Shown: positions 24,526 through 59,926 of the stretch, one piece after another
Position numbering within the stretch: the stretch's first letter is position 1
How the letters are laid out: each line of letters starts with the position of its first letter
Assembly: GCF_000236905.1 (NCBI RefSeq)
Contig: NC_016522.1
Location: 992,001-1,056,000, forward strand
Direction: 5' to 3'
DNA length: 64,000 nt
Origin: Tetrapisispora phaffii CBS 4417
Lineage: Eukaryota > Ascomycota > Saccharomycetes > Saccharomycetales > Saccharomycetaceae
Notes under the pieces: generated by a model
What the model was told of the DNA's origin: nothing
Database searches by the model: none
What the model saw: the letters and a program-made list of their open reading frames with translations, nothing else
Position numbers and translations under genes: made by a program

Positions 24526-25584
24526 GTTGTTGATCAGCGTGTGTAACTACGATTGCTTGCTATGTGTAGATGTGCGTAAGAGAAATATCCGAGTGGTAAC
24601 GGAATCGAGGATTGAGTCAGAATGGAGTCGCTTTTTATACAATTCACCGATGGGTGTTCTTATGCTACAACAAGAGGTATTAAAGTGATGCATTTCATTT
24701 TGCTCGGTTTCAATGCAGTCGAGACAGAAACATGCAACGTAACCAGACAGTAGCAAAGACCAGCCGCTGCAGTTCTTGCAGACTCATCGGTAACCGTCTA
24801 GCTGAGGTCTTGACAGTTTATCGTCGACCGATGAGCAAGAACCTGGCCTTTGCTGAGTTTGTTCTGCTCGTGCCAAACAGTTCCTCTAATGGCAAAGCAA
24901 ATAGCAGCACAATGCGTTGGACGGCTCGGGGTCAGAAGTTCTTGCTTTGCCGTGCAGGTGCATTGACCGACGGAGGGTGAGAAGTTCGGCCTGCCTTGGA
25001 AGAGAGTTGCTGTTGTCCAAAACATCTCGAGATTTAACTTCGAAAGCTTTGATTGACAGGTTGCCATTGCTCTTGCTCTTGCTATTGCCATTGTTGTGTG
25101 CGGGTGGCGTTGTCCGCTGTCTTGCTTAGCGGGAGACACGCAGAATCAGCGATAAATCGCTCCGCCGAAGTGATATTCGCGCACGGTGTTTTTGTGTTGC
25201 TGTTTCCGGGCGGCTCTCGTTTATTCGTGTTTGTGTTCGTGCCGCCTTTTGTATGCGCTCTCGCGGTTTAAACGACCGAGACGCGCCGCGGGCCCGCGGC
25301 GCGTTGGCGTTGGCGTTTTGGTGCGTCTCCTGCGCCGCTACTTACTGGTGTTCCGGCTCTTGCGACGACGCGTTCGCGGGTCCGTGGACATGTACTTCCG
25401 CCGCGGTGCAGCAGTTTCGTGTGCTGTTACGCCGTCGTGAGGGGGGGTATGGGTGGTGTCACAAAATCAGTTAGCGTCACGTGCATTTGTTTTGTGTCAT
25501 TTGCTCTTACATGTGTGCGTCTACGTATCGATATGTATGCTAAATGTATCTGTCTATTTGTGTGTGCAGTGTGGTGGTCCACCG
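24526..25584. other. GC-rich island 1 (SCS7 upstream / ZDS downstream)
   Basis: 1059 bp between the SCS7 start and the ZDS stop. GC content climbs abruptly: 25261-25320 has 42 G+C in 60. The island spills into the 5' end of SCS7 and the 3' third of the ZDS gene (to about 26600). It holds a perfect 24-bp palindrome (25281-25304), a GTTTAAAC (25265-25272) and a 14-bp near-palindrome (25148-25161). Several frames on both strands stay open, as expected when AT-rich stop codons are depleted, but none resembles a protein family. The SCS7 promoter must lie here. Confidence 0.75.
25281..25304. repeat. Perfect 24-bp GC palindrome in island 1
   Basis: Half-site ACGCGCCGCGGG followed exactly by its reverse complement, with no spacer. 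22 of 24 bases are G or C. The symmetry stops at both ends (flanking G and T). It could form a very stable hairpin or cruciform. Confidence 0.95.
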
Positions 25585-28500
25585 CTAGCCAAACACGGTG
25601 CGGCTGGCATGCGTGTCCACAGTCAGGCGGATCTCGGCGTCCTTGCCAGAGGTGTCCGCGGCCAGGGAGTCTGGTGCAGCTCCACTCCCGTCCGCGCCGA
25701 GGCCGTACTGCTCCAGGTATAGTGAGTGGTTCACCAAGTGCAGGTATGCGTACATGAAGTTGCTGAGAAGTACTTGCTGGCGTAGCTCTTTCTTCGTGTC
25801 GCCTAGTTTCAAATGGCTCAGGCGGTAGATGGCCCTTTCGACGCTGATAGGCAGTCGGTTCTCGAACATGATGATGGTCGACCGCGTCAATAGCGGCAAC
25901 GGGAATCCAAATGTACTGTCCATGAACTGGACGGGACCATTGGCACGTCCCGTCGGCGGGACGTCGGCAAACGTCAGTTTGCGTAGCGGCAATGTCGATG
26001 TCACGGGTGCTGGCCCGTTGCCATTGGTTGAGGCCTGTTGGCCTCTCGACGATCTTTTGGGGGTCTTCGAGACACGCGTACTCGTACTGTACGCACCAGT
26101 CTTCCTTCTCTGTCTGCCGTTTTTGGTAGGCAAATTAGCGCTGTTCTTGCCTGAGGGAGGTGTTTCGGCTCTTGGTGCAACGGCGTGTGTATGCGGATCA
26201 GGCTGTCTCGTCGTTTTGATAGTGATCGCAGGTTGTAAGCCGTTCAAAGGCGTGTTCCTGGACTCAGTCAGAGGACCGCTGGCATCAAGCACACTGCTGT
26301 CGTCCGTTCTCTCAGAAGCAGGTGAAACAGGTAAAATCTGCGCGTGCTTTTTTGGGTTATTATGCGTTTCGAGCTCGACTTGATCTCCATGTGCTTCTAT
26401 ATGGTATGCAGACTGGTTGGGCAAAGCAGGTTCTATAGGTTCAGTCCTAGTGCTGCTCGCAGTAGTATCTTGTCTGCCGCTTTCCGAGACAGAAATCTTG
26501 CTGGAACTCTTGCGCAATTTGTTGAAACTCGAACTTGAACTCTTTCTCACCTTCTCAAATGCCGATAAATCACTGTCCTGTTCGATCGCCGTGCTTACTG
26601 CGTCGTGACTAGTGCGGTGCAGTTTACCAGATGTTTTTCTCTTAAATAAATCATTCAATTTGCCAAGTGAATTTTTAATATTAGCAGACGATGAATCAAC
26701 CGCACTAGACTCATTGTCGGTTACGTTTTTGTACGAATGAGCATCGTTGGTTTTATCATGTAACTTGAATATATTTCTATTCCGAGACTTCCCTGGAGCT
26801 TTGTTGTGCAAAGAGTGGCCGGCCTCGGTGCTGGTTTCATTGTCATTTAATTCTGTTGAACCTCTATTGCCAGATGATGTTGTGTTTTTATTTAGCGAAT
26901 GAAGTGATGAATTAAAACTCTCTTTTGTCTTGTTGTTGAACCATGCCCAACCACCTCTTCTATAATGATGTTTCTGCGTAGATCTTACCTCTCTTAAATT
27001 TGTATCGCCATTCTGAATAAAGGAGTCTCTTTGTTCTTGGCTTGAAATAAGATTCTCAGAATGCTGCAGTTCTGAACTTGATTCATGAATATCATTCTCG
27101 CTTATGGTATGTTGCTCGGAATTATTCAAATATTCCGTGGCATTCATTTGGATCCTGTCATCGGCATAATTATTATTCACTTCGTTGTTTATATCATCTG
27201 TTTCAAATGAGGTCTCTTGTGTATGATCATGGGTTACCTTATCCAGGTACTCACCTTCTTCTCCCATTACGTTACTTGTTTGATATTTACTTGAAGCTAG
27301 TTCAGGCAGAGCAACCAGGTTTCCATTTAATGATATAGAAGATTCTGGATTTTTACTGGCGTTGAAAATCTCATCTTCCCATTCAGAACTAGGCTGTCTA
27401 TAATGATCATAAATGTCTTGAAAATCACTTACTGGGGATGAGCCAGACTGCTCATCAGCATCAGCCTTTTCTTCTATCGGTTTTGTCAAATAATCTTTTT
27501 GAGAATCTTTAAAAGAGATTTTATCGTTATTCCTTTCTGGGGACACTAGTGCATTTTGGTTATTGGACAACGCCACTTGAATTTCAGTAACATCACTTTT
27601 CTCTTCTGAAATATGTTGTGATCCCATATATGGATTCTCTATCTCCTTTTTTTCGGGGATATCAGAGTCTTTCTGGTTATTTCTACTATATCTATATGTG
27701 TTAAATTTAGACCTTCTTAATGAAGATCTCATTGGAACTTTCATGCCATTTACAGCGAAAGTACCTCCTTTAGAATTTTCACTGTTGAGATTTAGGATTT
27801 TGTCTTGCTCATTAAAGGTCTCCATGTTAGACGATTCATTGATAGTAGAATCATAAATCGCTAAATTTTTGTCATCATAAAAATCATTAATATTATTTTG
27901 ATATGAACTAGTTAAACCCAGTGATTGTGCTAAGTTTATAGCATCTGAATCTACTAATCCAGCATCATTTGAAATCCTTGTAAGTTCGTCTGTAATATTT
28001 TTCAACGATAATCGATGGTTACTGTTTCCATTAGAATTGATAGTGTCTCTTGAATCAAATCTAGTTATGCTAATATCTGTTTGGTCGTTTGTCGAAAAAG
28101 AAGATTCATTTTCAAAACTAAAAGTGTCATGGTCTTTTGTAAATGAGGGATCTTCTATGTCTGAATCAAAACTTTCATCATTGGAAGAGTGTCTTAATTT
28201 TGATGGTCTTCGTACGATTGATGATTTATTTTTCTTATAGGTAATTGACAGTCTATCCTTTTTTGTGACCTGTTTATCCTCTATATGCAAATTTTCTAGA
28301 ACTTCATTTAATTGTTTTGATGGAGAGACATTGGGATGTTGGTCAGCTCGTACCCATTTTACTGCATTGGTAGAATCTACTTTTTCTTCATTATAAACTG
28401 GAACAGATTCTTTATACTTAGAAAAAGTTGGGAATTGTCTGGTTGAGCTCCGCCGTCTTTGAATGCTCATATTGACTAAATCATTTGAGTAATCTATGTT

Positions 28501-34674: not shown

Positions 34675-35734
34675 TGTTGTGCTAATATTATCGTGTATGT
34701 ATTTATGAATATGTCAGTATATCCTATTCTCATTAAATATAACTACTCTTTTCCCACTTCACTGAATGAATTTTTCTATATCGTATCCTAAAGTATCAGA
34801 GACAATAACTTTTAGAACATAAACTGTAGACGTACACTAGGCTGTCCCAGATGAGCTGGATCAGAATAGTATAGATAAGGGGGGGATTGAGCTTCTTACC
34901 AATCGATCCTGAGTTGAAATAAACAGACCAAACGAGTTAGTATATTAGTCTATATATATGTAGATTCTATTTTACGAAGTTCAAGAACACAATGTAGTCT
35001 CTATAAATAACCATACTGCCCCAGATGCTGGAGACCAGCTCTCAATCCCTGAACTATTAATAACAACATTATCAGAAAGTAAAGAAACAATACTTTCAAC
35101 AGGCATATCATCATTAAAAAAAGAATAAATTTTCTATCTTGATGCTGTTTCTTTTCCAAAGGTTTTCAAAATCGCCGTTGTGAAAGTGTCCACTTAGTAT
35201 TATTATTATATATATTGGAAAGCTGTGGTGATATCTCGTCTTTTCGGAATTGCTCATTTTGTCGGACGAATCTCGGAGCCCGAGAATGAAAAAAAGTATT
35301 GTTGCTCTCCACGGCCATATGTCAGCCAAGATCAATATTACATTATACTGGCGCGGTGTTGTGTGCACAGACAACTGGCGCAGTTAAGTGGACATGCGTG
35401 CGCGAGCTGGCTGGTCGCGTGCGGGCAATTGCGTGTACTGTTAGGACCCAGCATAACCTGTATCTCTGCGTGTTTCCTCTACTGGCATTCCGTTCCAGTG
35501 TGTATGCCGCAGGGGTAGAAAACGTTTTCTGCGCATTCTTCGCCGTTCCTGTTGCTTTTGCTACAAAAACCGGCACGGAGCAACTGTTCCTTGCCCCGCC
35601 GGTACCGGACTCCATTAGTGGACGGGTAATACTAATCAACCTCCAGCTCATCTGTTATATACTGTTAAATAAGGCTATATTGTATAATGTTCCATTGTTT
35701 GTATTGATGCTAGGCTATGCTATATTATATGCTG
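34675..35734. other. BUL promoter, CTK3 3' region and GC-rich island 2
   Basis: 1060 bp between minus-strand genes. The first half (34675-35200) is AT-rich and nearest the BUL start. From about 35230 to 35640 base composition jumps: 35381-35440 has 37 G+C in 60. Contained here are a 10-bp palindrome CCGGTACCGG (35599-35608), a TCTCGG/CCGAGA stem (35271-35285), two direct ACTGGCGC copies (about 35347 and 35374) and CGGGTAA (35623-35629), a Reb1-type site. Long open frames on both strands start at non-ATG codons and are not supported. Confidence 0.65.
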
Positions 35735-36682
35735 TTACATGGTCAGGTACGATTGCTGCGAGATATCGTGCAGTTCCTGCATATTGTTGAGGTCCTCTAT
35801 GGTCAGTTCTCCCGTGGTGTTGTCCCAAAGTTTCTCGAACTCATTGGCGCTCAACATCGACCTGTCTGTGTCCCTCTTAATGAACCACGAATGCTCTTTC
35901 AGTTTCTTGTGTCTCTCCCTGTCGTTCTCCATCCGGTGCAATGTTATCTGCGTTGCAGCTGTGCCTTGTTCCTGGCATGGGATAGGCTCGCTGTTGGCAA
36001 ATTGTTGGTAAAACAAGCGCTGTTTCCCAATTCTGTCATTTAAAAGTGTCAGCGTTGTTCTGAAGGATTTTTCGTAGTCTCCGGCGGTGTCTGCTTCGGT
36101 ATCTGGGACCGTGTACCACGCCTCGCTAATCTGGGTTGCGGAAGTGCTCGAATGTCTTTGGAAAGCTTGCCTCATCTGCTTCATCTCTTCATCACTTATA
36201 ATGTTCCCAGCCAGTTGGTTCATGTCCACAAATCTGTTTATGCATTCATTTAAGTTTACCAACGACTTTATTTCATTTCCAGGTAACATCAACATGTACA
36301 ATTTGTCAATTGATGCCAGCAGTACTTTGTTCAGAATGTGTTTTTTACTCTCCAGCCCGCCAGTACTGTTGTCAACTAGGTATTTCAGCATTTCAATCAG
36401 TTTACAATAATAGATCAGCACATTCAGTCTGTCTAGAGAATCCATCTTGCTTGTTGTATCAAAGAGACATTGTTGGAAATCTTCGTAGTGTTCATCGCAA
36501 CAAGTTACATAGAACTGAATAGGGTCGACAGCTGCAGTCTTGCTGCCAGACATGTTGATCGACCCGGATAAATTAAAACTGTCGCTGTTAGATCCTGGCG
36601 CGTAGGTAAGGATAGTGTTCAGCGTCTTTGATAAAGATTTCAAAACTTGAATAAATTTCAATCTCGCCTCAAAAGAATCCAT
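35735..36682 (-). CDS. CTK3: CTD kinase I gamma subunit Ctk3
   Basis: Subunit of CTDK-I (with kinase Ctk1 and cyclin Ctk2), which phosphorylates Ser2 of the RNA polymerase II CTD. The ATG at 36682 gives 315 residues (S. cerevisiae 296) and aligns with the S. cerevisiae start MDSLEARLQFIQVLKNL; five upstream codons to a TTG are ignored. The N-terminal CID-like helical domain has DSFEARLKFIQVLKSLSKTL, DPIQFYV, DFQQCLFDTTSKMDSLDRLNVLIYY. The C-terminal part has LLNDRIGKQRLFYQQF, LHRMENDRERHKKLKEHSWFI and ANEFEKLWD. The 3' end is slightly GC-enriched at the edge of island 2. Confidence 0.93.
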   Translation of the reverse strand: MDSFEARLKFIQVLKSLSKTLNTILTYAPGSNSDSFNLSGSINMSGSKTAAVDPIQFYVTCCDEHYEDFQQCLFDTTSKMDSLDRLNVLIYYCKLIEMLKYLVDNSTGGLESKKHILNKVLLASIDKLYMLMLPGNEIKSLVNLNECINRFVDMNQLAGNIISDEEMKQMRQAFQRHSSTSATQISEAWYTVPDTEADTAGDYEKSFRTTLTLLNDRIGKQRLFYQQFANSEPIPCQEQGTAATQITLHRMENDRERHKKLKEHSWFIKRDTDRSMLSANEFEKLWDNTTGELTIEDLNNMQELHDISQQSYLTM

Positions 36683-43455: not shown

Positions 43456-43636
43456 CAAATTACAAACAAGACCCAATTTGATAAAACTGCACCTTAGTTG
43501 CAGCACCTAGCAGCGATGGACAACAATCAAAGGTTTATGTCTCTATATTATAATATCTTGTTGAAACAGAAGTCTTTATACGCACCCACCATGTTTCTCC
43601 TTTGCGATGAGCTTCACGCCTCGGGACGTATTGCTG

Positions 43637-43643
43637 TTACTAA
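43637..43643 (+). promoter_or_regulatory. Yap1-type site (TTACTAA) in the ATR1 promoter
   Basis: Exact TTACTAA about 315 bp upstream of the ATR1 start. S. cerevisiae ATR1 is a known Yap1 and Gcn4 target, so the motif is plausible regulation, but a 7-mer can occur by chance. Confidence 0.45.
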
Positions 43644-44847
43644 TTGCAATTCGGTCGGTATAGTTTTTCATTTTTATGAACCGCACCGTGTTGTTCTTTT
43701 AGTTACAAGCCGCTCGATGTCAGGTGTGCGCCATGAACGAGAGAACGTTAGGCCACCGGTTGTGCATAACAAGACCCTGTCACGCGACGTGCATAGGGAA
43801 AAGGCAGGATACGCGAAACGTGTTTAGGGTGTGTTTACGCGTTCTGCTATTTGATGGATGTTTCTCGACATTTCTTGTTGAACATTCGGACAATGCAAAT
43901 TATACGAGCCGCCGCTGTGCCTGAAACTATGAGCCGTCGCCGCTGCAGACGAGGCCACATCGCCGTGGTGGAACCAAACGTGACTAACTAGCAATTGGAA
44001 ACGGCTACTACACGGTTAAGCATTGGAGCTGGAGGACTGGGCGGCACACAGCTGAGCAATACGTACACATATGGTTTATATAAGGTGGGTTAACATGGCA
44101 TGTACGAGTGAGCCGAGACACGACAACCAGCACCGGCCTCTGGTATACGCATACCTGTAATATACAAATGGGTGCCATACGCTGTCTCCCTCTTTCTCAC
44201 CGTCTCTGTGCCTGCCACTGTCTGTCGTGTGCACAAAACCAACTTACCCGCCCACCCCCACCTTGTCATCAACCCTCTCGTTCACCCGGCCATAACCCGC
44301 CCCACCCCGCACCAGCCTCCTGCGAACGTTTCCCCTGCACCCCTCTCTGTGCACCGCGAGGTCACCCTCCACGAGCACAAGTCCCTCTCCGCGGTCCGTT
44401 GTTCACGGTCACCCCGCCACAAGAAAGTGTAGTACCTCGCAACCAACGAATCATCGCAGCGTAAACACTTACAAAGACCATCGCGCGACCAAACACAGTA
44501 CCAGTAGCCAAGATTACCACTGCAAGCACTCAATGTACTACGATCACTCAAACCATAACCACGCACACACACAGTTAACAAGTACCTCTCGATAGTCTCT
44601 AATATCGCTTTATTCAAATTTATTGATATCCGTAGTTGACAGAATTGAAACTGTTTAGAGCAACCTTAGAAACCTTATTCTCACTAGTCTCTCAATAATC
44701 CCGTTCTTATTATCCATTGGCCGATCCTGAGCATCGAATAATATGCTCTTATAGAAACTTCTCTATCACTGTCTTGAAATTTCGTTCTTCCCATTGGCAG
44801 TCTTATTAGAACTTTCCTTGTATTATATCTTCCTCCTATTTACTATT

Positions 44848-46868: not shown

Positions 46869-47846
46869 TTAAAAATATTGCTTTGCTTTCCTTATATTCT
46901 CTAATATTAATTCATGAGGAACGTTGGAATCTTTTAAAACCATAAAGCAGATCATATTAGATGATAACTCGGAGACATAAATATTATCATTTAAGACTAA
47001 AATTTTGAATCCACATTTTAATTTACTGCAACTTTGTTTGAAATTCTTCATAATATTGGAGATTTTTTCGAACCGCTTAGGATCCAGTATTAGTTGTTGG
47101 CCATTGTTATTCTTTTCTATAGTGTCGTTCTTTGAGTTATTTATGTTTTTTAATGCTGAATTATCACTTGTGTATACATTTGTAGAATTACTTGAACATA
47201 TTACCAGGAACGTTGATCTCTCGAAAAGAATGATTTCCACAGCATTTAATGTATTTTGTAATTTTTTTAGAGTAGCTTGATGAACGCCGATGTTTGGAAT
47301 TAGGGAACACACTATTTGAGACCAAGCTTTGTATAAACTTTCATCCCATATAGAGGTTGGGTACCCTACTAGATGAGGAAATCCATATTCAGCAGATGCT
47401 TGCTGCAGTTTTTTCATCATAATCTCAAAAAGTTCATACCTCTTATCCAATTGAACTAAATCCATTTTGTGCAATAAAACAAATATCTTAGCATCAGGTG
47501 AATATTTCTTCAGTTCTTTTAAGGCTCTAGTAAAAATCTCGATATCCTTTATAACTTCTTGAGACTCCACATCGAATACATGAATCAAAACTTGGACCAT
47601 TTGGAAAATATGATCTTTTTGCTTAGTAAAATAATTTTCCATAAAAACGTCTTGCCCACCACAATCCCATAAATTCAAAGTCATATTCCCCAAAAATCTC
47701 AAATGTGAATGTTCTACATCAATAGTGGCCCCTAACCTTCTAGTATCAAATGCTGAATAATTGCTAAAAACAATTGATCTCATCGAAGACTTCCCAGACC
47801 CAGAACGGCCCATAAGTAGCAGTTTCTTTCTATTATTGGAAGACAT
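46869..47846 (-). CDS. GTR1: Rag GTPase Gtr1 of the EGO complex
   Basis: RagA/B-type GTPase that pairs with Gtr2 on the vacuole and passes amino-acid signals to TORC1. The 325-residue protein compares with 310 in S. cerevisiae. G1 is GRSGSGKSS (13-21), with Ser20 equivalent to the residue used in nucleotide-locked alleles. G3 is DCGGQD (61-66), and the G4-like HKMD lies at 126-129. The C-terminal roadblock domain ends ELSSNMICFMVLKDSNVPHELILENIRKAKQYF. A Ser/Asn-rich insert at about 220-250 accounts for the extra length. Confidence 0.97.
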   Translation of the reverse strand: MSSNNRKKLLLMGRSGSGKSSMRSIVFSNYSAFDTRRLGATIDVEHSHLRFLGNMTLNLWDCGGQDVFMENYFTKQKDHIFQMVQVLIHVFDVESQEVIKDIEIFTRALKELKKYSPDAKIFVLLHKMDLVQLDKRYELFEIMMKKLQQASAEYGFPHLVGYPTSIWDESLYKAWSQIVCSLIPNIGVHQATLKKLQNTLNAVEIILFERSTFLVICSSNSTNVYTSDNSALKNINNSKNDTIEKNNNGQQLILDPKRFEKISNIMKNFKQSCSKLKCGFKILVLNDNIYVSELSSNMICFMVLKDSNVPHELILENIRKAKQYF

Positions 47847-48240: not shown

Positions 48241-49701
48241 ATGGTGAAAATAACTGAAGTGATTTGTCATCCAATTGAGACTAGAAGTTCATTGCTTCTT
48301 AAGTTATTTAGATGTGAAAGAATATATGAAGACGTTACCATCAATGTTGAGGAGGATATTAATGGTAAACCAACAAAAAATTTAGTTGCATGTTACGAGC
48401 TGTTGAGAAAAACTTCTAAATCTTTTTACTTGATGATCTTACAACTACATCCAAATATTAGAAATATTGTTATGATTTATTACTTGGTTTTAAGAGCATT
48501 GGATACTATCGAGGACCGTCCAAATTTGGAAGCAACAGAGAAAACTTCGTTACTGGAACAATTTCATCTGCAATTGGGCGACGTTAAAGCTGAATCTAAT
48601 GAGAAAAACTCCATACTTGATGGTGAGTATTCGATCATTAATCAATTTCAGATAGTTTTAAATGAATATAACAAATTAGAAAAATTCTATAAAGTTATTA
48701 TCAGAGATTCCGCTCAAAAGATGGGGACCGGTATGAGTAAATATCTTTTCATAGAAAGCGACGCCAAAGATTCCCTAAACACTGTAAAGGAATATAATGA
48801 ATATTGTCACTATGTTGCTGGAGTTGTTGGGGAAGGCCTAAGCAAAATATTTGTGAAACTGCAATTTAATTTCGATAATAGTAATCACCTCATTATTAAT
48901 GAAAGATTAAAACTGTACGAACATCTTGGTCTATTCTTACAGAAGACAAACATTATTAGAAGCTTTCATAAGGACTACGAGAAGTATAATAAGAGCTATT
49001 GGCCACGTGAAATATGGATAAAATATATCGATAACTCAAAAGATGCTAAATTGGCAACTATTGAGGACTTAATCAATAGCAATAAGAGAATTGATTGTTT
49101 AAATGAGATGATCATCAACGCAGTTTCAGACCACATGAAAGAAATATTACTTTATATCAGTCTAATTGAAGAACAAAGTATCTTTGAATTTTGTGCTGTC
49201 CCGCAAGTCATGGCAATAGCGACGTTAGCAATGCTATACAACAACGATAAGGTTTTTACAAGCGACAATGAGCAATTAAAAATCAGGAAAACTGAGACAG
49301 GCTATATTTTATACAACTGCAGAACATTACTCAATGTCACGACAGCTATAAAATTCTACTTATCACAGATGTTGAAGAAATCAAAAGGTAGCAACAGGAA
49401 CGATAAACTAGCCACAATGGTAATGGAACTAGATGGGATCATTGATTATAAGATGTTCCCAGAAGAGGCCAAAAATCCGGTTACCGATGGTGTAAGAGAG
49501 GACGATTACAACATCTTCTCCAAACAAAGGAACGATAAAATAGATAAAAAGACAAATGAAATAGATTTCAAAATTGAAGAGAACAACTTCCTAATGATAC
49601 TATGGTTAGCAGCTATCATAATTGCAGTTGCAGTGTATTTTGTATTTTTCTTCGAGCCACCAACCCTTCGTGTGCATCCTATTGACACAGATCAAGCTTA
49701 A
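48241..49701 (+). CDS. Squalene synthase-like protein with altered second Asp motif
   Basis: Clear member of the squalene synthase family (Erg9 joins two farnesyl-PP on the ER membrane), but divergent. Length 486 against 444. Conserved: S59-K-S-F62 (SRSF in Erg9 and human), the first aspartate motif DTIED (88-92) in YYLVLRALDTIED, YCHYVAGVVGEGL, LGLFLQKTNIIR, QSIFEFCAVPQVMAIATLA, and a C-terminal anchor at about 450-471 with a 15-residue luminal tail. Altered: after NIIR the canonical DYxED (DYNED in S. cerevisiae, DYLED in human) is S241-F-H-K-D245, which keeps only the last Asp. Lys also replaces Arg at the SRSF position and in the ..R-S/E-FWP segment (NKSYWP). The gene sits between GTR1 and PHO84, where S. 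cerevisiae has no ERG9. It may be a second, neofunctionalised or inactive copy, so I do not name it ERG9. Confidence 0.85.
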   Translation: MVKITEVICHPIETRSSLLLKLFRCERIYEDVTINVEEDINGKPTKNLVACYELLRKTSKSFYLMILQLHPNIRNIVMIYYLVLRALDTIEDRPNLEATEKTSLLEQFHLQLGDVKAESNEKNSILDGEYSIINQFQIVLNEYNKLEKFYKVIIRDSAQKMGTGMSKYLFIESDAKDSLNTVKEYNEYCHYVAGVVGEGLSKIFVKLQFNFDNSNHLIINERLKLYEHLGLFLQKTNIIRSFHKDYEKYNKSYWPREIWIKYIDNSKDAKLATIEDLINSNKRIDCLNEMIINAVSDHMKEILLYISLIEEQSIFEFCAVPQVMAIATLAMLYNNDKVFTSDNEQLKIRKTETGYILYNCRTLLNVTTAIKFYLSQMLKKSKGSNRNDKLATMVMELDGIIDYKMFPEEAKNPVTDGVREDDYNIFSKQRNDKIDKKTNEIDFKIEENNFLMILWLAAIIIAVAVYFVFFFEPPTLRVHPIDTDQA

Positions 49702-51389: not shown

Positions 51390-53186
51390 ATGAATTATAG
51401 TGAAAGTGAAAAACATGACTTACAAAACAACCCCAAGGTTCCAAAGGAAGCCTTAACAGAAGGTGGTAATGCTGCTTTTCACAATTTCATTAACGATTTT
51501 GCTCATGTTGACGATCCCTTAGAAAGAAGAAGGCTTGCATTAGAAAAAATCGATAATGCTTCTTTTGGTTGGTATCACGTTAAGGCCATTTTAGTTGCTG
51601 GTGTAGGTTTTTTGACAGATGCATATGATATTTTTGCAATTAATTTAGGTGTCTCAATGTTATCATATGTATATTGGAAGGGTAGCATACCCTCTTCATC
51701 GCAGACATTGTTGAAAGTATCCACCTCAGTCGGTACTGTCATCGGTCAAGTTTCATTTGGTGCTGCGGCTGATATCATTGGTCGTAAAAAGGTTTATGGT
51801 TCAGAATTAATTATTGTAATTTGTGCCACTATTTTACAATGTACATCAGCACATTCACCAGCAATAAATTTTGTTGCTATTTTAACGACCTATAGAATTA
51901 TTATGGGGATTGGTATCGGTGGTGATTATCCATTATCCTCAATTATTTCTGCTGAGTTTGCAACAACAAAATGGAGAGGTGCCATCATGGGTGCTGTCTT
52001 CGCAAACCAAGCTTGGGGTCAAATCGCTGGTGGCATCATCGCATTGATCTGCATAGCTGCTTATAAAGATGACCTAATACATGCTAATTCCGGTGCTGAA
52101 TGTGATTTAGTCTGTCAAAAAGCTTGTGATCAAATGTGGAGAATTTTAATAGGTTTCGGCGCTCTGCCGGGTATGATAGCTTTATATTTCAGATTGACTA
52201 TTCCTGAATCTCCTAGATACCAATTAGATGTAAATCTAAGGGATAGTGTAGTTGAATATCATAATTTGGATGCCCCTGTTCATAGTGGAAGTGACATCTC
52301 TGAAAACGAAAAAACAGCTGCAAAAATTGAAGAAAGATCTCATGATGGAATCGATATCGAGAACAGCACTGATGAAGAGCTATACGCCCCACCAAAGGCT
52401 TCATTTAAAGACTTCTGTGATCACTTTAAGCAGTGGAAACATTTTAAGATTTTATTAGGTACTGCTGGATGTTGGTTTATGTTAGATGTCGCTTTCTATG
52501 GTTTATCACTAAACAATGCAGTCATCGTGGAAGCTATTGGTTATGCATCATCAAAAAACGTCTATTATAAACTGTACAATTCTGCTGTTGGTAACTTAAT
52601 TTTAATCTGTGCTGGGTCACTGCCCGGTTATTGGGCGTCTGTCTTTACTATCGATATTATAGGTAGAAAACCAATTCAAACTTTTGGTTTCTTCATTTTA
52701 ACAGTACTTTTCTGTGTCATTGGTTTTGCTTATCATAGATTAACTCCTAATTCTTTGTTAGGTCTGTACATTGTTTGTCAATTTTTTCAAAACTTTGGTC
52801 CAAATACCACTACATTCATCATTCCAGGTGAAATTTTTCCTACAAGATACAGATCCACAGCACATGGTATTTCAGCTGCCTCTGGTAAGGTCGGTGCCAT
52901 TATTGCTCAAACTGTTTTAGGTACTTTGATTAATCATAACTGTGCGAGAGATGGCAAACCAACAAACTGTTGGTTACCTCACGTTATGGAAATTTTTGCA
53001 TTATTCATGTTATGTGGTTTAGGATTAAGTTTCTTAATTCCAGAAACTAAGAGAATGACTCTTGAAGAGATCTCGGAGAAATACCACGGTGAAGTTGACC
53101 TTACAAAATTAGCAGAAAGGAATCTTAACTATAACAAGAACTCCGTTATTATGTCAAAAGATAACGGTTCTCAAATTGATGTCTAA
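51390..53186 (+). CDS. PHO84: High-affinity inorganic phosphate/H+ symporter
   Basis: Plasma-membrane MFS phosphate transporter of the PHS family, 598 residues (S. cerevisiae 587). Nearly every block matches: LTEGGNAAFHNFINDFAHVDDPLERRRLALE, GVGFLTDAYDIFAINLG (span 1), GIGIGGDYPLSSIISAEFATTKWRGAIMG (the phosphate signature), the cysteine-bearing loop GAECDLVCQKACDQMWRIL, and the late signature FFQNFGPNTTTFIIPGEIFPTRYRSTAHGISAASGKVGAI. Twelve spans with a long central loop between 6 and 7 (about 275-340) are expected. The C-terminal tail has ETKRMTLEEISEKYH. Neighbour of alpha-tubulin, as in S. cerevisiae YML123-124. Confidence 0.97.
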   Translation: MNYSESEKHDLQNNPKVPKEALTEGGNAAFHNFINDFAHVDDPLERRRLALEKIDNASFGWYHVKAILVAGVGFLTDAYDIFAINLGVSMLSYVYWKGSIPSSSQTLLKVSTSVGTVIGQVSFGAAADIIGRKKVYGSELIIVICATILQCTSAHSPAINFVAILTTYRIIMGIGIGGDYPLSSIISAEFATTKWRGAIMGAVFANQAWGQIAGGIIALICIAAYKDDLIHANSGAECDLVCQKACDQMWRILIGFGALPGMIALYFRLTIPESPRYQLDVNLRDSVVEYHNLDAPVHSGSDISENEKTAAKIEERSHDGIDIENSTDEELYAPPKASFKDFCDHFKQWKHFKILLGTAGCWFMLDVAFYGLSLNNAVIVEAIGYASSKNVYYKLYNSAVGNLILICAGSLPGYWASVFTIDIIGRKPIQTFGFFILTVLFCVIGFAYHRLTPNSLLGLYIVCQFFQNFGPNTTTFIIPGEIFPTRYRSTAHGISAASGKVGAIIAQTVLGTLINHNCARDGKPTNCWLPHVMEIFALFMLCGLGLSFLIPETKRMTLEEISEKYHGEVDLTKLAERNLNYNKNSVIMSKDNGSQIDV

Positions 53187-57002: not shown

Positions 57003-58403
57003 ATGACTGATACTAAGAGACAAAAGACTGCTGATCAACCAACTAGACCACAAAATATCGGTATTAAAGGTATTGAAATTTACATTCCAAACCAATACGT
57101 TAGTCAAACTGAATTAGAAGAATATGACGGTGTTTCTGCTGGTAAGTACACCATCGGTTTAGGTCAAACTAATATGGCTTTCGTCAACGATAGAGAAGAT
57201 ATTTATTCTATGTGTTTGACTGTTTGTTCCAACTTGATCAAGAATTATAACATCGATACCAACAAGATTGGTAGATTGGAAGTCGGTACCGAAACTCTTA
57301 TTGACAAGTCCAAATCCGTCAAGTCTGTTTTAACACAATTATTCCCAGGCAATGGTGATTTAGAAGGTATCGATACAGTTAACGCTTGTTACGGTGGTAC
57401 TAATGCATTATTCAGTTCATTGAATTGGATTGACTCTCAATATTGGGATGGTAGGGATGCCATCGTAGTCTGTGGTGACATTGCTATTTACGACAAAGGT
57501 GCCGCTAGACCAACTGGTGGCGCTGGTACCGTTGCTTTATGGATCGGTTCAGACGCCCCATTAGCCTTCGACAGCGTCAGAAGTTCGTACATGGAACACG
57601 CATACGATTTCTATAAGCCTGACTTCACCAGCGAATACCCGGTCGTTGATGGTCACTTCTCTCTAAGATGTTACGTCAAGGCCTTAGATCAAGTTTACGA
57701 AACTTATTTGAAGAAAGCTATCACCAAAGGGTTAATCTCCGAGACTGAGAACAAACCATTGACCGAATATTTTGATTACAACGTGTTCCACGTCCCAACT
57801 TGTAAACTAGTCGCAAAGTCTTACGGTAGAATGATGTTCAACGACTGTAAGAGAAACCACGCATACTACCCAACCGACGGATCCGTTTCTCAAGAAGAAA
57901 TCTCTGCCTGGGATACAATCGACTATGAAGAATCATTATTCGACAAAGCATTAGAAAAGAAATTTGTTACATTATCCAAAAGGTTGTACAATGAAAAAGT
58001 TGCCAAGTCATTAACTGTGCCAACCAATGTTGGTAATCTATACACTGCTTCTGTGTTTTCATCTCTCGCCAGTTTGATCTATTACGTCGGTAGTGATGCC
58101 TTACAAAATAAGAGAATAGGTCTATTTTCATACGGCTCCGGGTTAGCCGCTTCCTTATATTCTTGCAAAGTCGTTGGCGACGTCTCCAAGATTGCCCAGG
58201 TTTTGAACTTAGACGCCAAATTGAATACGTTAAGATCGCAACTAACCCCAAAGCAATACGAAGATGCAATTGCATTAAGAGAAGCTGCCCACTTACAAAA
58301 GGATTTCAAACCAAACGGATCCACTGATCTGTTGCAAGCCGGAACCTACTACTTAAGTGCCGTTGACGACAAGTTCAGAAGAACATATGAAGTCAAACAA
58401 TAA
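57003..58403 (+). CDS. ERG13: HMG-CoA synthase
   Basis: Condenses acetyl-CoA with acetoacetyl-CoA to HMG-CoA, an early step of the mevalonate/sterol pathway. The 466-residue protein (S. cerevisiae 491) begins with a short basic leader and then [21 protein letters not shown]. The acyl-accepting cysteine is Cys129 in [11 protein letters not shown], and the acetoacetyl-CoA-binding histidine is His263 in NVFHVPTCK. Also seen are [17 protein letters not shown] and the C-terminal [17 protein letters not shown]. Codon use is biased to preferred yeast codons, consistent with high expression. Catalytically complete. Confidence 0.97.
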
Positions 58404-59262
58404 AAAAGCGCTGAGTGAGCGACCTCCTCGCCGCCATACACATATCCCCATTGCACAAAGAAGAGTATTTGCATTAATTTAAATCAACACATAACAAGTA
58501 GTGTAACCTATATACACAAATATTTAGTAGCTTTAAGAAAAATTGCAATGTAACACTGAGAGTTATGACGTTCTTATGTGTCTTATATACATGTACATAC
58601 ACACACACATATATATATATGTATAACAGGCAAACCTCCATTGCATTATTAAAGTATACATAATTAGGCTTCTTAATGAATATGCTAGTGGAGCATTGTC
58701 TGACAATAGACATACTGAAAGTCTACCATCGTGCTGCAACCACAATAACTCCATTGGCGCCATGGCGGCTCTATGTGGCTTTTACAGTTTTCGTAGACAA
58801 TGATGCCGTCTGGTTGCTTGAAATGGCTGTGTGCAACGGCAGTGCGCACAGGTAGCAACCGACTCGTCGTGTGTCGGTTGCAAAACAGAAGTTCCAGCGC
58901 CAAGTTCCACCTCTGTTTTCATGCAGCGTCGACAATGATCCTGGAGACAGAACACAAGAAGACAAGAACCGGCACGAAAGAGCGAGTGTGTGCGTTGTTG
59001 TCGTGGGTTGTCTCCCAATTAGGCAGTGCAGTGTCACCATCACCTCGCCAAAGACAGACAGACACACACACACGCGCAGAAAACCACAAGCACACTTTTT
59101 TTCCGACATCAACCGACCAATCAGCGATCAGGTGATGGGCATTGCGGGTGGTTTCCACTCACCGACCCAGTTTCTCGCTCCCCATGCATGCACGTCGCGT
59201 TGGTTACCGCTCGTTATTTAAGCGCGTTGGTGCTTCGTTCTTGTTTGCGTCCGCGTGTGTCT

Positions 59263-59286
59263 GGGGACCCGGCCGGCCGGGTCCCC
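59263..59286. repeat. Perfect 24-bp GC palindrome in island 4
   Basis: Half-site GGGGACCCGGCC followed directly by its reverse complement, centred on GGCC|GGCC. 22 of 24 bases are G or C. It is unrelated in sequence to the palindrome of island 1, but identical in length and symmetry. Confidence 0.95.
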
Positions 59287-59926
59287 GGCCCTCGGACTGC
59301 GGTGGTGGATGTCCGCGCGGGGACGCAGACGCAGACGCTCGGCCCACAAAAGGGCAAGAGCTTCCCTTTGCGGCCAAGGGATTTTCCGGTCCGTGGGTCT
59401 CGCAGGCCCTCTGTTTGTCGGTCCCGTCTTTTCTGGGTCCGGGTACTTGCGTGAATTTGCGCGTGCGCGAACACAGCGGTGCAGCCATATGCCGTTGTGG
59501 TCTGGTTCCACGTCCACTGAGCCCCCCGCACCGAACGCCGCTGGAAGAGTCGTCGTCGCCCATCAGTTGATATCATTGGTCAATCCTCCCTGCCTTTGCC
59601 GCCCGGCTGCCCACAGCGATCGTCGGACCGCAGCGGTGTGTCGTCCTGAGTCGGCGCTCTCCACGCTGCTCGTTACGCCAGACCCTCTACGCTCCCTCTC
59701 TTGTGCGCCCTATTCGCACATTCGAAACAGCATGTACCCAGATATTACATGATGTTGTCCATACAGACAGACATTTCAAACACCCAAGGACTGTTTTTGT
59801 GTCCTCTTTGTTTTAAGAATGAATGCTAGGAAAATTATAGTTAAACCATTCGATTGCTAAAAAATAAAAAAATAAATTTAACAAATCTTCTTTTTAACCC
59901 ATTCATAACTAAACATATATACAATT

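Follow-up and report, generated by a model that had tools for sequence, protein, structure and literature searches.

In the 64,000-nucleotide stretch of the Tetrapisispora phaffii CBS 4417 genome analyzed here (contig NC_016522.1, positions 992,001 to 1,056,000; hereafter the window) lies a diverged copy of the squalene synthase gene ERG9, which synteny marks as an ohnolog from the whole-genome duplication still standing at the ancestral site of the gene, and which has lost the second of the two Asp motifs of its family. Squalene synthase is an essential enzyme, and both of its Asp motifs are regarded as fixed. We propose that the window gene may encode an endoplasmic reticulum (ER)-anchored pseudo-synthase that binds farnesyl diphosphate (FPP) and no longer makes squalene, a statement which, taken as a whole, is given an even chance. 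The yeast genome duplication is dated to about 100 million years ago in the abstract of PMC2675101, and the duplicate has apparently been kept since then without the second motif and with most of the remaining pocket. At stake is whether an essential enzyme turned into an FPP sensor or inhibitor, a phosphatase or a new terpenoid enzyme.

The open reading frame (ORF) of 486 residues at 48241-49701 is a squalene synthase homologue, since it passes the cut-offs of both family profiles, SQS_PSY (140.5 bits, cut-off 26, E 1.1e-40) and squal_synth TIGR01559 (330.6 bits, cut-off 286.75). In a comparison with solved structures its best solved chain was found at E 2e-62, and the predicted structure has the squalene synthase fold, with the C-terminal membrane helix retained (model helix 432-470). 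The protein is 35-41% identical to the relatives compared, and 33-39% in one of the comparisons. This is in accordance with a first-pass annotation of the window, made from the letters alone, which described a squalene synthase-like gene with a long open frame and a kept membrane anchor.

The same annotation read the first Asp motif as intact (DTIED, residues 88-92) and the second as SFHKD (residues 241-245, encoded by AGC TTT CAT AAG GAC at 48961-48975), so that the DxxED pattern is present in the first and absent from the second. Both readings were confirmed in the translation and in a 150-row alignment. Protein searches at E <=1e-10 gave 3,807 matches with the window copy as query and 5,742 with its canonical sister on the sequence C9 (see below); the best 120 of each were taken, giving 154 distinct proteins, and after removal of five over-long Brassica proteins and addition of the sister the alignment held 149 sequences other than the window copy, the sister included. 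The second motif was said to be near-invariant in active squalene synthases, and indeed all 149 have Asp in the column of S241, that of K244 is Glu at a frequency of 1.0 and that of D245 is Asp in 149/149. N237 and R240, like D245, are the same residue in all others and in the window copy; the changes around the motif are D241 to Ser and E244 to Lys. A regular-expression scan of the 154 proteins left six without a second-motif match, and in the alignment all six have D..ED. The residue following DTIED, which is Asp in 98-100% of relatives, is Arg93 in the window copy, and in the loop after the second motif (residues 246-255) R251K and F253Y fall at near-invariant columns. Of the several conserved arginines said to have become lysine, R60K and R251K hold, while R85, R240, R349 and R361 are unchanged (six Arg columns at least 98% conserved). 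A single sequencing error can be ruled out as the cause of SFHKD; one miscall cannot explain Ser241 because the step from GAY to AGC takes at least two base changes, and 23 near-invariant columns are changed in all.

Residues of the active site were numbered by hand as in the human enzyme, following the alignment with the solved chain, and residue roles in the S1 and S2 sites follow what excerpts of Shang et al. 2014 (PMC4006925), PMC4823828 and PMC10378455 state. In S2 five of six diphosphate residues are retained (Arg52 is replaced by Lys), and 11 of the 14 hydrocarbon positions are as in S. cerevisiae; at the other three, Ser201 and Phe204 match the human residue and Met207 is replaced by Leu. 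S1 retains Arg77, Asp80, Glu83, Asp84 and Asp223, and is altered at Asp85 (to Arg), Asp219 (to Ser), Tyr220 (to Phe) and Glu222 (to Lys). Arg228, downstream of a one-residue insertion, is Lys. Equivalents of the catalytic Tyr171, Gln212 and Phe288 and of the KIRK segment, assigned to NADPH in the excerpted literature, are present (Y188, Q234, F317 and K347-R349). According to an excerpt of PMC10378455, Asp219 and Asp223 mutants lose function completely, replacement of the Asp residues by Asn or Glu gives no activity, and the Asp altered here (Asp219) is assigned to the first half-reaction and reported essential. Because published Asp mutants of other squalene synthases are inactive, squalene synthesis has very probably been lost in the window copy, which agrees, as regards the motif, with the earlier claim of lost or changed catalysis. 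Of the three functions put forward with that claim (a regulator of the true enzyme, a synthase stopping at presqualene diphosphate, a new terpenoid enzyme), the presqualene diphosphate synthase seems the least likely, because the altered Asp is the one reported essential and assigned to the first half-reaction. It could still be argued that the window copy makes squalene or presqualene diphosphate, with Ser241 holding Mg2+ together with Asn237 and Asp245. The retained equivalents of Tyr171, Gln212, Phe288, KIRK, the first motif and Asp223 and the intact fold speak for such residual synthesis, but we consider it unlikely in view of the first-position Asp in 149/149 other sequences, the inactivity of the mutants just cited, and a canonical copy that could relieve selection.

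That canonical copy, at C9:70346-71671, is the only other squalene synthase locus found in the T. phaffii genome by family profile and protein searches (a genome search also gave three polyprenyl synthase frames in four matches), and it retains 92 of 93 near-invariant columns. The gene order around it is peptidyl-tRNA hydrolase (PTH1-type), ERG9, PHO84 (TPHA_0I00380), phosphoribosyltransferase and a PXA/PX protein, of which the last two are presumably URA5-like and MDM1-like, respectively. A canonical ERG9 elsewhere in the genome had been anticipated in the first-pass annotation, and the case in which the window copy would be the sole ERG9 did not arise. The canonical gene lies within a GC island (C9:70601-72700, where GC reaches 63% in 500-base windows, the C9 stretch being at 34%), and its third-position GC of 0.63 compares with a median of 0.29 among 121 genes. 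Its protein is not among the best 120 of the 5,742 matches, though its neighbor TPHA_0I00380 is in the database.

The two copies lie on paralogous segments. When the 77 ORFs of C3:932001-1096000 were compared with the 78 ORFs of C9:1-172800 at E 1e-8, five ORF pairs were obtained, four of which (ZDS, ERG9, PHO84 and tubulin) fall within 30 kb and 43 kb. We take ZDS1/ZDS2 and TUB1/TUB3 to be ohnologs in S. cerevisiae. Each ERG9 copy is directly upstream of a PHO84 copy (51390-53186 in the window, C9:72339-74168). Linkage of the two genes was judged by systematic locus tags in the 18 other species with tagged ERG9 and PHO84 matches listed (A. aceris was left out, as its names copy those of E. 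gossypii), and it was found in 9 of the 18 and in 9 of the 12 within Saccharomycetaceae. Seven of the nine linked species (Z. mrakii, three Eremothecium and three Lachancea) we take to be unduplicated lineages. The tags are adjacent or one number apart in V. polyspora (Kpol_541p19/p20), N. dairenensis (NDAI_0K00290/00280), Z. mrakii (HG535_0C05760/05770), E. cymbalariae (1390/1388), E. gossypii (AFR444C/AFR442C; the PHO84 name also stands in an excerpt of PMC4320514) and E. sinecaudum (HDL445W/HDL443W), and near on one contig in Lachancea (LAFA_0G 44 apart, LAMI_0G and LANO_0G 88 apart). The genes are not linked in K. naganishii, K. africana and T. blattae, where they are on different contigs, nor, outside the family, in W. 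mucosus, C. fabianii, B. naardenensis, P. carsonii, C. boidinii and C. arabinofermentans. Because 9 of the 12 Saccharomycetaceae are linked, seven of them unduplicated, ERG9 beside PHO84 is an old arrangement in this family, and neither T. phaffii copy has moved. With both copies upstream of PHO84 on paralogous segments, and with linkage in nine other yeasts, they are therefore ohnologs of the whole-genome duplication at the ancestral site. The first-pass annotation had placed the window gene between GTR1 and PHO84, correctly, and had taken it for a copy relocated to a new locus. Relocation is ruled out since both copies adjoin PHO84; the site is away from the usual ERG9 locus relative to S. 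cerevisiae only. A recent segmental duplication is likewise ruled out, as the PHO84 pair is 73.7% identical over 570 residues and, in the tree described next, the PHO84 of the window clusters with a V. polyspora gene.

In a 43-row PHO84 tree the window copy joins Kpol_541p20 (99/97), and the C9 copy joins an unnamed sequence (100/96) and Kpol_309p1 (97/87). Kpol_541p20 is numbered beside Kpol_541p19, which has canonical motifs and is the only V. polyspora ERG9 among the matches listed. It follows from this grouping that the window gene is the positional orthologue of the canonical V. polyspora ERG9, and that the canonical T. phaffii copy is the other ohnolog. T. phaffii and V. polyspora, which belong to sister genera, thus seem to differ in which ohnolog they kept as the canonical enzyme. 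Since Kpol_309p1 carries the first number of a 20.7-kb contig, a lost ERG9 and an unassembled one beside it are indistinguishable. The ERG9 tree groups the window gene with Kpol_541p19 and an unnamed sequence (79/98, not starred), and the end branch of the gene is long (5.55 and 10 in the ERG9 trees). Such a family tree, proposed earlier as a check, cannot place the window gene, so that synteny and PHO84 carry the ohnolog claim. V. polyspora, N. dairenensis and N. castellii likewise have two PHO84 copies each among the matches listed, which indicates that duplicates of PHO84 survived more often than those of ERG9.

The window copy evolved fast, and in a patterned way. Compared with three outgroups it carries 150-154 unique changes where the C9 copy carries 26-27, a branch ratio of about 3.8 (3.55 if V. 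polyspora serves as the reference), and for the PHO84 pair the counts are 38 against 33 and 40 against 42. It keeps 69 of the 92 columns that are at least 98% conserved and has the commonest residue at 109 of 349 less conserved columns; this follows the family pattern, as would be expected under selection. The fast evolution, the 23 of 92 near-invariant columns changed and a middling codon adaptation (rank 69 of 121 genes, the GC-rich C9 copy being at rank 111, with a reference set of only four genes) would also suit a decaying relic whose frame is open by luck or whose function was lost recently. This is, however, improbable in our opinion, because the frame has stayed open in spite of differences from the C9 protein at 266 of 437 aligned residues, when under random substitution of the C9 gene a median of 17 changes, and 223 at most, led to a stop (500 runs); the retained residues also track family conservation, and the fold is predicted. 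A pseudogene is held unlikely on the same ground. The sterol element has TCGTATA as its motif, and no exact TCGTATA is present within 700 bp upstream of either ERG9 copy.

Homology, synteny, a single canonical sister, fast patterned evolution, the motif change and the predicted fold are directly supported, and beside them we can outline how the proposed pseudo-synthase might have arisen. After genome doubling the C9 ohnolog would have kept the squalene synthase job, while the window copy kept the fold, nearly the whole FPP (S2) pocket, the catalytic Tyr, KIRK and the ER anchor and lost the S1 metal site in part (Asp219 to Ser, Glu222 to Lys, Asp85 to Arg). The protein would then bind FPP, as it probably does judging from the pocket, or presqualene diphosphate at the ER but form no squalene, with the newly gained basic residues possibly substituting in part for Mg2+ at the diphosphate, and it may buffer or sense FPP or compete with the C9 enzyme. 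Several points weigh against this. The charge changes are not significantly concentrated in the Asp motifs (three of four in 7 of 20 conserved charged sites, p 0.10), and Mg2+ could still be bound by the N-S-D residues. The changes at near-invariant columns also fit loosened constraint, and no orthologue of the diverged form in another species is among the best 120 of the 3,807 matches. As to descent, none of five other placements in the ERG9 tree was rejected (p-AU 0.163 to 0.455), one with outgroup yeasts included, and gene conversion in PHO84 could mislead the segment assignment.

With Erg9 and the eukaryotic squalene synthases the window protein shares the family profiles, fold, first Asp motif, S2 pocket, Tyr, KIRK and C-terminal anchor; it differs from them in SFHKD, in Asp85 to Arg, in its low identity and in a rate some 3.8 times that of its sister. 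The squalene synthase fold can also hydrolyse one bound FPP to farnesol, as in the FPP phosphatase YisP of Bacillus subtilis. Such an activity is not likely here, since YisP shares only 12% identity with it in the structural superposition (238 aligned residues) and S1 ionisation normally uses the Asp altered in the window copy; moreover, YisP is bacterial and its solved chain has no anchor. Neofunctionalised squalene synthase duplicates are also described, in excerpts, for the Euphorbia peplusol synthase (PMC12219392) and for Botryococcus braunii LOS and SSL-1/2/3 (PMC4823828). Peplusol synthases and LOS are described there as keeping both DXXED motifs, so that the loss of the second sets the window copy apart from these two.

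A terpene-cyclase-like enzyme would have moved its second motif towards the class I NSE triad and ionised FPP to a sesquiterpene. Against [N/D]DXX[S/T]XX[K/R]E, as an excerpt of PMC7839719 gives it, N237-I-I-R-S241-F-H-K244-D245 fits in N, S and K at the right spacing, and the Asp-to-Ser and Glu-to-Lys changes, both of them radical, bring the site closer to the cyclase motif, a likeness noticed after the fact. The full motif is absent, with I at the second position and D instead of E at the last, and unlike in class I cyclases (NSE/DTE) the sequence and best fold match are those of a squalene synthase, which makes this reading very improbable. Hardly more probable is a broader version, in which the window copy, freed by the other ohnolog, would consume FPP to make a sesquiterpene or farnesol with a cyclase-like N-S-(K)-D metal site. 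No paper naming both Tetrapisispora and squalene synthase was found in the open-licence literature, and among the matches listed on ohnolog and sterol topics no title or abstract start concerns this gene; ERG9 and PHO84 are both absent from the main text of PMC2675101, and an excerpt of PMC6508512 holds nothing bearing on inactive copies.

Table 1. Positions in the window of the diverged ERG9 copy, its parts and the genes around it.
Feature	Position	Strand	Basis
Diverged ERG9 ohnolog (squalene synthase homologue), 486 residues	48241..49701	+	ORF, family profiles, alignment, predicted fold
First Asp motif DTIED, residues 88-92, intact, followed by Arg93	48502..48516	+	sequence, alignment
Altered second Asp motif N237-I-I-R-S-F-H-K-D245	48949..48975	+	sequence, alignment
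Loop after second motif, residues 246-255, one extra residue	48976..49005	+	alignment
C-terminal membrane anchor, about residues 451-472	49591..49656	+	bounds set by eye within model helix 432-470
ZDS-type gene, C9 paralogue 49% over 202 aligned positions, supports duplicated segment	25585..28803	-	segment comparison
GTR1-type GTPase (Gtr1/RagA), upstream neighbor	46869..47846	-	ORF, family match
PHO84, downstream neighbor, ERG9 linkage partner, tree marker for duplicated segments	51390..53186	+	ORF, protein search, tree
Tubulin gene, C9 paralogue 92.6%, supports duplicated segment	54086..55429	+	segment comparison
HMG-CoA synthase gene	57003-58403		ORF, family match

The gene order in this part of the window is GTR1-type, ERG9 copy, PHO84, tubulin and HMG-CoA synthase (Table 1), the last of which also belongs to the isoprenoid pathway and is located some 7.3 kb downstream from the diverged ERG9. 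The window, with a background GC of 0.34, contains more short GC islands, at 24701-26600, 35301-35900, 43601-44700 and 58701-59900, which peak at 0.59, 0.48, 0.57 and 0.64, respectively, in 500-base windows.
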